From contig JBFMGG010000006.1 in the NCBI GenBank assembly GCA_040752835.1, positions 62,001 through 126,000 on the forward strand: a stretch of DNA of 64,000 nucleotides, in the 5' to 3' direction. Origin of the DNA: Campylobacterota bacterium (GTDB lineage: Bacteria > Campylobacterota > Campylobacteria > Campylobacterales > Sulfurimonadaceae). Positions 44,367 to 61,998 of the stretch are shown piece by piece; position 1 is the first letter of the stretch; each line of letters starts with the position of its first letter. Both the position numbers and the translations under genes were made by a program. The notes beneath the pieces are model-generated. The model did no database searches, was not told the DNA's origin, and saw only the letters and a list, made by a program, of their open reading frames with translations.

Positions 44367-44380
44367 TTTCCCGCAGGAAA
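44367..44380. repeat. Candidate parS-like palindrome, copy 1 (one mismatch)
   Basis: TTTCCCGCAGGAAA differs at one base from the perfect copies elsewhere in the prophage. It lies in the 90-base gap between the major tail gene and gene G, next to an additional perfect 16-bp palindrome TTTTTTGATCAAAAAA at 44381-44396. See the parAB entries. Confidence 0.5.
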
Positions 44381-51385: not shown

Positions 51386-53238
51386 CGCCCCCTTGAAATG
51401 ATTCTTCTTCCGGATTTTTTCCCGCGGGAAATTTTTTCAACGCTATCTTTTGGTTGAATTGATACGATCCCAATCCGTCTCCCTATATTCAGTATCTGTT
51501 CATCGACTCCTGCGAGCTGTAGCGCGGCATTGGCATAGTTGCGGCAGTCTATCGCCTCATTACGGTGCCGATACTTGACCCATCCACCAGTTTTTTTATC
51601 CCGCTTCTCTGCAGTGAGCTGCTTGAAATACTGATCGTCATAGATGTCATAATCAGGGAAGTGCATATAGTTCGGGCCAGGCTCTTTGACTTCGATGTTT
51701 GCGTAAATTTCATCCTTTCCTGCATTTACACCTACAAGAAACAGGTTTACTTTGCCCTCGTTTTTCGTACTGGCCCGCTTGTTGATAAACGGTGCTCCGA
51801 TGGTGCTTGATCCCTTCAGCGCATATACACGCTGGCTGTACCGTGGTTTACAAAACGCATACGCCGCTTTCGTTCTGTGCCCTCCGGTATCAACCCCTTT
51901 GGAGTATATTTTCATACGTGCTCCGTCCTCGCACTCAAATGTACGGTTCAGATACGATGCAAGCTGTTTTCTCGTCTCTATGTCAGCAGGATCTCCATGA
52001 ATGATGTTGTAATCGATGCTCCATGTCTCACCGTCTTTTCCATACCCTACAACTTCGATTTCAAATCGGTCGTTCTGCGTATCGATTCCAGCAGATAACA
52101 CAAGAACTCCATCAGGCACTTCAGCGGTATAATGTTCTTTGCGTGATGGGAGATCATCGGCTTTTACCGTCTCCATATCGCCTTCCCATACCTTCGCATC
52201 ACGGGTATTTACCCATGTTTTCATTTTTCGGATGTCGCCGCGCTTCATGGTCATTTTTGCCAGTAGAAACTCTCTGAAAATTTCGTTCCAGCTAACAAAC
52301 CCTATCGGTGATAGATAGGCTGGAGCATAAAACCCGGCATGAGGATGGCCAGGATTATGTGGTACCCATTTTGCACCGTTTTTGAGGTCCATCATCCATG
52401 TCTTGTGATATTCTTCGATCAATGATCCGCAGTGGTTGCAAGCAAACTTGACATCTCCGATCAATGTGTAAGTCTCTTTGTTATACTCAAATACAAACCC
52501 GTCTTTTTCAAATGTCACAAGTCCGTTGCAATATGGGCAAGGCATATAAAAATGTCTCTGATCGGAATCTTCGAATTCAGGGTCTATGTTTGAGTTTTCA
52601 GCTTCTGCAGGCGTGGAGTTGATATATATTTTTCGCAGTATCCCAAATGAGTCGGTACGTTTTTTCCCAAGATCCATCGGATCACCCTCATCTCCAACAT
52701 CACGTACAAACCCTTCAACGTCATCCATTACTACTACACGGCATGATAGGGAGCGATAGTTTGCCGATGAACCAGACCACCCTATCGACAATGACCCGCC
52801 TGAATAGTTTTTTTCAAACGTTGACCCGATATCTGATTTGGTTTTGCCGGCATGAATCTTTTCGGCAAGGCTTGGCATCGCACGAAGAGAAGGTTCCAGT
52901 TTTTTATCATGATGACGTTTTGCCAGCGTTTCCGTTGGTAGAATCATCAGCTGTGATGTAGGAACTACGTCCATGTAATACATCAAAACATTATTTGAAA
53001 CTTCTGTAAAACCTAGCTGAGTCCCTTTTTTGACCTTTACCTGCTGTACCGGACTTTGCGGGCTGAGTTCGAACATAACCTCTCTGAGATACGGCATACG
53101 GTCAGTGCTATACTGTCCCGCCTCGGCACTGGCCCCTTTTGGGAGCTGTCTATACTTGTCTGCCCACTCATCGATGGTGATATATGGATCAGGCGCAAAC
53201 CCAAGAGCAAAAGCATCATAAACAGGATTACAGCTCAC
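51382..53238 (-). CDS. Terminase large subunit (A-like)
   Basis: 618 residues (lambda gpA 641). The GpA ATPase region is visible: EWADKYRQLPKGASAEAGQY, VKVKKGTQLGFTEVSNNVLMYYMD (Walker A-like), CRVVVMDDVEGF (Walker B). The C-terminal nuclease domain includes LSAGIDTQNDRFEIEVVGYG with its acidic residues. The extreme C-terminus, encoding KISRGKKSGRR, contains a perfect TTTCCCGCGGGAAA palindrome at 51418-51431. It translocates DNA and cuts cos. Confidence 0.94.
   Translation of the reverse strand: MSCNPVYDAFALGFAPDPYITIDEWADKYRQLPKGASAEAGQYSTDRMPYLREVMFELSPQSPVQQVKVKKGTQLGFTEVSNNVLMYYMDVVPTSQLMILPTETLAKRHHDKKLEPSLRAMPSLAEKIHAGKTKSDIGSTFEKNYSGGSLSIGWSGSSANYRSLSCRVVVMDDVEGFVRDVGDEGDPMDLGKKRTDSFGILRKIYINSTPAEAENSNIDPEFEDSDQRHFYMPCPYCNGLVTFEKDGFVFEYNKETYTLIGDVKFACNHCGSLIEEYHKTWMMDLKNGAKWVPHNPGHPHAGFYAPAYLSPIGFVSWNEIFREFLLAKMTMKRGDIRKMKTWVNTRDAKVWEGDMETVKADDLPSRKEHYTAEVPDGVLVLSAGIDTQNDRFEIEVVGYGKDGETWSIDYNIIHGDPADIETRKQLASYLNRTFECEDGARMKIYSKGVDTGGHRTKAAYAFCKPRYSQRVYALKGSSTIGAPFINKRASTKNEGKVNLFLVGVNAGKDEIYANIEVKEPGPNYMHFPDYDIYDDQYFKQLTAEKRDKKTGGWVKYRHRNEAIDCRNYANAALQLAGVDEQILNIGRRIGIVSIQPKDSVEKISRGKKSGRRIISRGR
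51418..51431. repeat. Candidate parS-like palindrome, copy 2 (perfect, inside terL)
   Basis: TTTCCCGCGGGAAA, here embedded in the 3' end of the large terminase gene where it encodes basic residues. Flanking A/T tracts extend on both sides. See parAB. Confidence 0.55.
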
Positions 53239-58481: not shown

Positions 58482-58499
58482 ATTTTCCCGCGGGAAAAT
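58482..58499. repeat. Candidate parS-like palindrome, copy 3 (perfect, extended)
   Basis: ATTTTCCCGCGGGAAAAT, an 18-bp perfect palindrome containing the TTTCCCGCGGGAAA core at 58484-58497, in the noncoding gap after the WYL/TerB gene. Confidence 0.6.
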
Positions 58500-59844: not shown

Positions 59845-60606
59845 TTATAATTTATCAAAATGTCCTACTACACGCCCGATGATCTTGCATCCGTCGAAAT
59901 CATCCCCTTTGATGATAATGTCATCTACTTCTCTGTTGTCGCTGACAAGCTTCATCTCTTTGGTGATCGGGTTGGTCCTGATCCTCTTCACGAAAACCGA
60001 ATCGGAGCATATGATGACGTAGATCGCACCGTCTTTGATCTTGCAGTCCTCGTTCTCGTACGGGTTTACCATCAGCAGCTCACCGGCCGCGATCGTAGGT
60101 TCCATACTGTTGCCGGTCGCACTGATGACATGGATCCCGCCAAATCGGTCTACCCTCAAAAAGTCTTTTAGAAATGCACTTGAAAATTTTATGAAGCTGT
60201 TCTCGATGTCATGAGGGATAACCGCACCTCCGCCAGCCGATGCCACTACATCGTGCAGGTACGGGATATTGATCATCTCATCTTCTTCCTGATAATCTGC
60301 GACATCCTCTTTTTGAGCTGATATTCCTGAGATGCTGTTATTTGAACCATTGACTTGGTTATTGCCATTACCAACCATGGATTGAGAAACCATTGTCCCA
60401 CTACTTTTGCCAGTGAGCAAGAACTGATAATCAGCACCTAACCGATCCGCAATCATATGTAGTTTTTTAAATGGGATACTGTTTCTGTTTTTCCACGTAT
60501 CTAGCGTAGGATATTTTAAAAAGTCTATTTTTTCGCATAGCTCAACGTCTGTTTTTACATTTGCAGCCTTACGAATCCGCACTAAAATCTGTTCTATTTC
60601 TTTCAT
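59845..60606 (-). CDS. CI-type repressor with S24 peptidase domain
   Basis: 253 residues from the ATG at 60606; a longer upstream reading adds 30 residues overlapping the promoter and is rejected. An N-terminal phage CI HTH (VELCEKIDFLKYPTLDTWKNRNSIPFKKLHMIADRLG) is followed by an Asn/Gly/Ser linker and a C-terminal LexA/S24 domain with the catalytic Ser in ISATGNSMEPTIAAGELL and Lys in VFVKRI. RecA-stimulated self-cleavage (at an Ala-Gly such as VVASAGGG) would induce the prophage. It probably binds the operators at 60,639 and 57,272. Confidence 0.9.
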   Translation of the reverse strand: MKEIEQILVRIRKAANVKTDVELCEKIDFLKYPTLDTWKNRNSIPFKKLHMIADRLGADYQFLLTGKSSGTMVSQSMVGNGNNQVNGSNNSISGISAQKEDVADYQEEDEMINIPYLHDVVASAGGGAVIPHDIENSFIKFSSAFLKDFLRVDRFGGIHVISATGNSMEPTIAAGELLMVNPYENEDCKIKDGAIYVIICSDSVFVKRIRTNPITKEMKLVSDNREVDDIIIKGDDFDGCKIIGRVVGHFDKL

Positions 60607-60631: not shown

Positions 60632-60661
60632 TTGACAATACATTCGTTTTGAATGTACAAT
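60632..60661 (+). promoter_or_regulatory. Rightward early promoter with overlapping operator
   Basis: TTGACA (60632-60637), an 18-base spacer and TACAAT (60656-60661). The spacer contains TACATTC-GTTTT-GAATGTA (60639-60657), identical to the leftward operator. It drives the small HTH gene and probably the genes beyond. It lies between cI and the HTH gene, the OR position of lambda. A short palindrome TCGCC-N5-GGCGA follows at 60708-60722. Confidence 0.82.
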
Positions 60662-60737
60662 ACCTTCAATCGTTTACGTTTACAAAACATAAACAATTAT
60701 AACACACTCGCCAAATAGGCGAAAAGGTTTGACAAAT

Positions 60738-60989
60738 ATGACGTTTAATCCGCAAATTTCGCTTTACCAGAATGTCAAGATGGGCCTCATGGTAAAAGGG
60801 TCCTCATTCGAAAAAGCGTGTGAGGCTATCGGTGCGAAACCTTCCTCTGTAAAAGAGCGCCTACACAAGCGTTTGATCCGTGACGGAAAAAGCACACCGT
60901 TGGATAAACAGATTTTCAAATACATGCAAACACATTGCAGCGGGTTCAAAGAACACTGCGAAACAAACGGCATCAACATAGTTTCATAG
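60738..60989 (+). CDS. Small HTH protein, Cro position
   Basis: 83 residues from the ATG at 60738 (a TTG three codons earlier is possible). The segment SFEKACEAIGAKPSSVKERLHKRLIRDG is a likely HTH of the phage Cro/excisionase type, followed by a Cys-containing tail. First gene from the rightward promoter, divergent from cI, so probably a Cro-like or early regulatory protein. Confidence 0.68.
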   Translation: MTFNPQISLYQNVKMGLMVKGSSFEKACEAIGAKPSSVKERLHKRLIRDGKSTPLDKQIFKYMQTHCSGFKEHCETNGINIVS

Positions 60990-61240
60990 ATCGTACATCG
61001 GTACGGTCAATTGAGCCTATGCTCAACGAAGCGGAGAGTAATCTCTGAGGGAGTCGGATCATGTCGATCCGGCAAGCAGCGGTAACGGCGTCTGCGGGAG
61101 GCTGGTGAGCGCGCCACGTGCAGCGACACCATCCTATAGCCCCCAATGGTACGAAGTCAGGGGCGAAGCAACGAGTGCTTAATGAAGCGCAGGATGTTGG
61201 GATTCCATCACGTCTGCGTTTCACAGATCACTCATAGGAT
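60990..61240 (+). ncRNA. Gene-free, hairpin-rich region: candidate structured RNA
   Basis: About 250 GC-rich bases with no credible coding frame. Local stems include GATCGTAC/GTACGGTC (about 60989-61008), TTGAGC/GCTCAA (61011-61026), CGGATC/GATCCG (61055-61071), GCCCC/GGGGC (61139-61164), AAGCA/TGCTT and CGCAG-GATG/CATC-CTGCG (61188-61218). The string of stable stems in a rightward early transcript is unlike the surrounding AT-richer spacers. Start and end are approximate; the identity is unknown to me. Confidence 0.5.
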
Positions 61241-61246
61241 GCAACG

Positions 61247-61504
61247 ATGGTCCCTTTCGATGAAATTAAGGCCGCTGTGGAAGTATCGAACAATATATCA
61301 ATGGCGGAATCAGACCTGTTTCACTGCCTTAGACCGCTCGGCAAATACTACAGCTACAACGGCATCAACAAAATCGACAAACTCAATATGTTCGATAAAA
61401 AGATGATGAGGATCAGAGACGAGATCATCCAGTTTCGCAAAGAGCTCGAAGCGTCTTTTTTGATCACGGAATGTGAGGAATGTTTCCAGCCTCAGCCAGC
61501 CTGA
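61247..61504 (+). CDS. Phage hypothetical protein
   Basis: 85 residues. MVPFDEIKAAVEVSNNISMAESDLFHCLRPLGKYYSYNGINKIDKLNMFDKKMMRIRDEIIQFRKELEASF, then a Cys-rich end (ITECEECFQPQPA). Possibly a small DNA-binding or protein-interaction module; no family recognised. An AGGATG upstream is a weak ribosome-binding site. Its 3' end overlaps the convergent gene by 41 bases. Confidence 0.6.
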   Translation: MVPFDEIKAAVEVSNNISMAESDLFHCLRPLGKYYSYNGINKIDKLNMFDKKMMRIRDEIIQFRKELEASFLITECEECFQPQPA

Positions 61505-61736
61505 AGCGCTTGTCATCGACGTCGCTGATCTCTATGCACTGAACCAGTGCCGAGAACTTGCCGTTGTCATCACGGGCGTGCGTGATCTCGATGATGACGA
61601 ACAGCCCGGTGCAGCTGTGGCTTCTCAGATAGCTGTTTTCGATCATTTCCCCTACTCTTGGCAGATATTCCATCGTGTCGGTAAACCCGAGATTCACCCC
61701 GCTGTGCCCTTGGTATCGAACAGTAATTTCCATCAT
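61464..61736 (-). CDS. Phage hypothetical protein, antisense-oriented
   Basis: 90 residues from the first of two ATGs at 61736, with AAGGGC upstream. Beta-rich (MMEITVRYQGHSGVNLGFTDTMEYLPRVGEMIENSYLRSHSCTGLFVIIEITHARDDNGKFSALVQCIEISDVDDKRFR). No recognised family. It points against the rightward genes and its own promoter would lie in the structured region to the right. Confidence 0.55.
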   Translation of the reverse strand: MMEITVRYQGHSGVNLGFTDTMEYLPRVGEMIENSYLRSHSCTGLFVIIEITHARDDNGKFSALVQCIEISDVDDKRFRLAEAGNIPHIP

Positions 61737-61894
61737 GAAGCCCTTTGTGTTGATGTTTGTGTGAGAACTCACATTATACCAAAGGGTTTCACCGTGGAAA
61801 ACACTCTCCATGAAGCCCTCTAAAGTCATCCGATTGCATGAGGTTCTACGACCTTCTCCTGAAAATAGACATTACGGAAATTTAACGGTAGGGG

Positions 61895-61980
61895 ATTAGC
61901 CGTGAGGGCTTCACCGAGAGCGTTGCGCTGGGTATAGGTTCCCTTTGCGGTTCACTATCCCTATATCCAGTGGAACGCTC
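61895..61980 (+). ncRNA. Long imperfect hairpin upstream of the par operon
   Basis: GAGCGTT (61918-61924) pairs with AACGCTC (61974-61980); after a 3x3 internal loop, CTGGGTATAGG (61928-61938) pairs with CCTATATCCAG (61960-61970), one G-U pair, giving 18 paired positions around a 21-base loop. A small hairpin GTGA/TCAC (61901-61914) precedes it. It is immediately upstream of a parS-like palindrome and 40 bases before the first gene of the par operon. It could be a leader RNA element or part of a DNA site. Confidence 0.5.
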
Positions 61981-61984
61981 AAAA

Positions 61985-61998
61985 TTTCCCGCGGGAAA
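61985..61998. repeat. Candidate parS-like palindrome, copy 4 (perfect, upstream of par operon)
   Basis: TTTCCCGCGGGAAA in the leader just 23 bases before the first ATG of the operon containing parA and parB. In this position it could also serve as an operator for ParB autoregulation. Confidence 0.62.

Follow-up and report, generated by a model that had tools for sequence, protein, structure and literature searches.

Genomic context of the RNA

The window analysed here is a 64,000-nucleotide (64-kb) stretch of a 298.7-kb contig, part of a 2.13-Mb genome of the genus Sulfuricurvum. A prophage occupies the right part of the window and apparently ends near L008:12800, ahead of a chromosomal argB-like gene (argB read from the translation). 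The prophage features that bear on the analysis are:

30451: integrase gene of the prophage
59848-60606, minus strand: CI-type repressor with peptidase S24 domain
60632-60661, plus strand: predicted early promoter, TTGACA-18-TACAAT, 11/12 consensus positions; predicted start about 320 nt upstream of the RNA
60729-60989, plus strand: Cro-position gene, 86 aa; its stop codon overlaps the first bases of the RNA
60986-61246, plus strand: structured RNA, full extent by homology (model R1), limits approximate
61247-61504, plus strand: small ORF, 85 aa, next after the RNA

A preliminary description had reported a structured RNA of no recognised kind in the rightward early transcript, between a Cro-position gene and another small gene, and these two neighbours are the genes at 60729-60989 and 61247-61504. 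The 86-aa Cro-position protein matched no Pfam family. Further 3' of the RNA, the prophage carries small cargo genes and then ParA/ParB genes (62272 and 62864). A small gene at 61464-61829 on the minus strand runs against the early transcript; relatives have other opposing genes in the matching stretch, which looks like a cargo slot.

Folding, coding potential and database searches

The stretch 60990-61240 has a GC content of 0.55, compared with 0.51 for the whole window, and stop-free runs on its sense strand reach at most 46 aa. The two closest homologues, the window RNA and that of G036, differ by alignment gaps of 2, 1 and 14 nt, lengths that rule out a conserved reading frame, so the GC-rich stretch indeed lacks a conserved ORF. 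The predicted minimum free energy (MFE) was -97 kcal/mol versus -81.7 ± 4.9 in dinucleotide shuffles (z -3.1), with about eight or more successive stems where at least six had been proposed, and the Sulfuricurvum homologue folded with a z of -4.2. Since the fold was also significant with DNA parameters (z -4.0) and likewise for the minus-strand RNA, energy alone does not identify the molecule or the strand.

Neither the window RNA nor any of five relatives reached the gathering threshold of an Rfam 15 family, with relaxed searches returning chance-level matches only, and ARAGORN matched no tRNA or tmRNA; the preliminary description had likewise not recognised it as a tRNA, tmRNA, group I/II intron core or known riboswitch. 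No relatives emerged when collections of phages and plasmids were searched with the RNA by BLAST; one 79.7% match over 63 nt was seen in a Paraclostridium plasmid (E 4e-3). The RNA occurs once in the 2.13-Mb genome, both by sequence and by covariance model.

A family of thirteen RNAs

Covariance searches identified 12 relatives, giving a family of 13 members with the window: seven relatives follow the same Cro-position gene, one lies behind a promoter (L194), three follow a Lin1244-type gene and one is weaker (G557). The first of these, G036, belongs to the same genus, has the same arrangement and carries an RNA 71% identical to that of the window. A model built from these two sequences (R1) found G011 and, in a set of loci selected by a hairpin pattern, four viral contigs. 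Aligned Cro-position proteins led to a fifth viral contig with the RNA: a query alignment of six sequences succeeded where one or two sequences had returned nothing. An initial DNA pattern picked out 38 contigs that all lacked the RNA, and the HP2 motif by itself also matches by chance; one locus (L180) was discarded as the hairpin pattern had matched inside an apparent coding sequence.

A second model, R2, was built from four members with the window excluded. It matched the window at 44.6 bits (E 1.9e-11 in its genome), where the HP1-HP2-HP3 head and P9 are both present, and independently recovered G036 (E 2.6e-14). R2 also added G114, G117 and G213, from another genus of the same taxonomic family (1e-28 to 1e-31), while L194 was added through a core pattern search. 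G557, from another family, was a weak first match to R2 (18.7 bits, E 0.004) and has the GCGAAGCAGC hairpin as well as the shared motifs ACCTGACAAG, GGTTTGGGATGAGTT and GACTGAG; its score with a third model, R3, is not independent because G557 was in the R3 alignment. Two genomes of further genera, G048 and G072, have the HP1-HP2 head alone after distant Cro-position relatives; the remainder differs, and the G072 fold is not significant. Overall, the family is sparse: 6 of the 228 genomes searched in the taxonomic family have a match, as do 4 of 397 in a class-level sample, three of those four being among the six. These covariance models and 13 members define an RNA family that is absent from Rfam 15.

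Architecture and covariation

Stems of the window RNA, all on the plus strand, are:

60989-61008: HP1, GATCGTAC ATCG GTACGGTC; 2 of 8 pairs covary over eight sequences
61011-61026: HP2, TTGAGC CTAT GCTCAA; present in ten phages
61032-61047: HP3, CGGAGA GTAA TCTCTG, then AGG; 5 of 6 pairs covary in the fitted alignment
61053-61073: P4 of the window-type middle, GTCGGATC...GATCCGGC; 4 of 8 pairs changed on both sides relative to G036
61076-61135: P5 (61076-61095) and P6 (61099-61135) of the window-type middle; compensatory changes relative to G036
61139-61170: P7, GCCCC...GGGGC, then GAAGCA; C-G to U-A change relative to G036
61173-61233: terminal stem P9, GAGTG..TAATGAAGCGCA...TGCGTTTCACA..CACTC; 7 of 16 pairs covary over eight sequences

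HP1, HP2, HP3 and the terminal P9, with its conserved internal loop, are common to the eight Cro-type members. HP2 shows the highest sequence conservation of the hairpins, and HP1 pairing is possible even in the diverged G048 and G072. Six of the eight Cro-type members, together with the other elements, have a common core with near-invariant loops (GAGT of HP3, a TGA loop and AGCA), the motif GGATGAGTT...GACTGA and highly conserved unpaired stretches (GTGAAAAGTAA, TTGA and AGCA). The window RNA and G036 instead carry a distinct middle of four stems, including an inner stem and the loop CACGTGCA within P6, and model R3, built on the core middle with GGGATGAGTT...GACTGAG and a GNAGCA loop, did not find the window RNA. 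This difference suggests that the middle domain has been exchanged. The GAAGCA that follows P7 is the motif that caps a hairpin in other members, a GNAGCA-type loop being found in all core members. Across the family, RNA size ranges from about 183 to 260 nt, with 6-9 stems.

Covariation strongly supports this structure. The separately predicted MFE folds of the window and G036 have 55 pairs in common; in 14 of them both partners differ and in 4 just one does, pairing being kept throughout. Among the eight Cro-type members, 27 of 64 pairs changed on both sides versus 10.9 ± 2.2 in shuffles, in an alignment fitted to the covariance model, which favours its count; none of 500 shuffles scored as high, and at most six pairs were counted when the partner was slid by 1 to 3 columns. 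An 11-sequence core aligned by MAFFT, with structure not used, gave 12 of 30 covarying pairs (shuffles, 4.1 ± 1.4; at most two when slid). In a hand alignment, 24 pairs covary, a count that is one too low because a single stem (P6Ao) was wrongly set. In the same alignment, where 3 of the 6 HP3 pairs covary, 45 G-U cells stood against 3 A-C cells, an excess that identifies the plus strand as the folding strand. Two core stem positions hold an invariant G-U pair (11/11), which favours RNA over single-stranded DNA. The element is thus a conserved, covarying RNA on the sense strand, and 60986-61246 is almost certainly a genuine structured RNA, as the preliminary description had proposed.

Placement in phages and integrative elements

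In eight phages the RNA starts where the Cro-position gene ends, at its stop codon, and the last codons of that gene are near-invariant at the DNA level too (ATAGTTTCATAG). A promoter with 11-12 of 12 consensus positions and a predicted start 318-320 nt upstream of the RNA was found in seven of these eight members (the window and six relatives); the eighth, G011, has a 10/12 promoter and a different upstream gene. On the phage contig L194, no Cro-position gene intervenes, and a weaker predicted promoter lies 34 nt upstream of the RNA. In both L194 and G557, the gene upstream points away from the RNA; the proteins encoded by the divergent genes at L194:9646-10329 and L189:1801-2520 look alike by eye, one of them having weak Pfam matches alone (MmcB-like, DUF5018). 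Elsewhere, the RNA lies 3' of a Lin1244_N gene (G114 and G117; G213 is similarly arranged, by reading), a type of gene that we take to be related to replication proteins. The G114 RNA opens a co-directional block that extends to a TrwC relaxase and a TrwB coupling protein, with the integrase on the other side.

The RNA is always oriented in the sense of a downstream operon. The genes directly 3' of it vary, even among Cro-type phages (G036 has an opposing gene in place of the next co-directional gene), and no protein neighbour is common to all contexts, so a gene-specific UTR is unlikely. No promoter lies directly in front of the window RNA and no terminator directly behind it, and no strong sense-strand intrinsic terminator was found in the 9 kb that follow, with few predicted in other members. 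Behind the G557 RNA, a long interrupted stem ending in TTTTT (L189:1480-1570, minus strand) could be a terminator.

Two other recurrent elements were seen in the prophage. The palindrome TTTCCCGCGGGAAA lies at 51418-51431, 58484-58497 and 61985-61998, with a one-mismatch copy at 44367; the exact form occurs three times in the 2.13-Mb genome, always inside the prophage. Cro-type relatives carry it one to several times as TTTCCC-NN-GGGAAA, and it is absent from the examined stretches of L194, G114, G117 and G557. It is similar to sites of the Noc/ParB type, and the phage ParB may use it as a centromere. The other element (61918-61980, plus strand), also conserved and structured, lies in the leader of the ParA/ParB genes. 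Its long stem has one sequence in the window type and another in the remaining phages, and is topped by the motif AGGTTCCCTTTGYGGTTCRCT. It is also found in G036, G011, L174-L178 and L194, often with the palindrome directly after it.

Possible functions

The position at the head of an operon is kept while neighbours change and across unrelated elements, which points to action on the transcription complex or on the whole transcript. We tentatively prefer a cis-acting leader RNA that controls elongation in early operons of Campylobacterota mobile elements, a reading by analogy with systems compared below. RNA polymerase starting at the early promoter would transcribe the RNA, which would fold and act on the transcribing polymerase, directly or via Nus-type host factors, and transcription would continue through the long operon. 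Alternatively, the RNA might deprive Rho of a loading site at the end of the translated Cro-position gene; Rho-dependent termination, or protection against Rho at that point, may play a part. The main weakness of a cis role is the scarcity downstream of predicted sense-strand intrinsic terminators, which classic antitermination would lead one to expect; to this may be added the single copy per genome, the TTTTT-ended stem of G557 and a window middle unlike the shared core. Of the three functions first offered for the RNA, an antitermination site best fits the placement, although it stays unproven, whereas a regulatory decoy found no specific support. With greater reserve, we suggest that the RNAs may form a modular antiterminator family with exchangeable domains, common to temperate phages and integrative elements of Campylobacterota, that converts RNA polymerase at the heads of long operons without a dedicated protein.

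The main rival, which we consider somewhat less likely, is a trans-acting small RNA, processed from the early transcript or made from its own promoter, that targets host RNA or protein. Discrete conserved limits, the very conserved unpaired core stretches, the terminator-like end in G557 and the predicted promoter just upstream in L194 would all suit such a molecule, but the window RNA has neither an adjoining promoter nor a terminator, and the family always lies in the sense of the downstream operon. Elongation control in cis is favoured over it because the placement matches that of HK022 put and Tn916 canT.

A regulatory 5' leader controlling the next gene, as an attenuator or ligand sensor, is improbable: a small ORF does start just after the RNA in the window (61247), L174, L176 and L194, but members vary in which gene comes next, an opposing gene takes that place in G036, and no Rfam riboswitch matched. 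Still less probable is a DNA-level element, such as a single-strand origin or primosome site folding as single-stranded DNA. The significant fold with DNA parameters and the position after Lin1244_N genes in G114-type elements (a presumed link to replication) would fit it, yet the invariant G-U stem pairs are more natural in RNA and no replication gene was recognised beside the RNA in Cro-type phages. The idea that GC-rich DNA folds locally by chance here, with no function, has the moderate z-score and nothing else in its favour; it is refuted by the covariation, along with the conserved place in 13 members, and its probability is negligible.

Comparison with known systems

In the rightward early transcript of phage lambda, nutR with tR1 sits after the Cro gene; the short nut site consists of boxA and boxB and serves the N protein. 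The present RNA occupies the same genomic slot, after the Cro-position gene, but no boxA-like YGCTCTTWA was found in the window, and no N-like gene was recognised, boxB and N having been looked for by reading only.

Closer parallels come from RNAs that act on transcription themselves. The put sites of phage HK022 are about 70 nt long with two stem-loops, occur as two copies per genome (putL and putR, the latter about 270 nt from its start site; PMC9378689) and need no phage protein to suppress termination, acting through the beta' zinc-binding domain. Like put, the RNA described here is a structured element of a phage early transcript, in the sense direction and a few hundred nucleotides behind the early promoter (about 320 here), and starts with closely spaced hairpins. 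Unlike put, it is about 183-260 nt long with 6-9 stems and present in one copy, and any contact with RNA polymerase is suggested by analogy. The canT RNA of Tn916 is a multi-stem RNA with active fragments of 341-452 nt that is required for the long Tn916 operon and is thought to act in cis on RNA polymerase (PMC11658703). By description rather than sequence, both are large multi-stem noncoding RNAs serving a long operon of an integrative element, whereas canT comes from another host phylum and has experimental support and known terminators to overcome. The eps-associated RNA (EAR) of Bacillales is likewise an antiterminator that serves a long operon, and no protein partner is known for it (PMC11658703), but it belongs to a non-phage operon of Firmicutes, whereas the present setting is a mobile element and no Rfam family matched.

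The RNA thus resembles put and canT in its proposed working and is not a member of any catalogued family; whatever its function, the family is new to Rfam 15. Few RNA-only antiterminators are known, and those described in PMC9378689 and PMC11658703 come from a lambdoid phage and Firmicutes. A structured RNA of this size with a near-invariant core, which recurs at this position both in phages and in an integrative element from a different phylum, is a concrete, testable candidate to join them.
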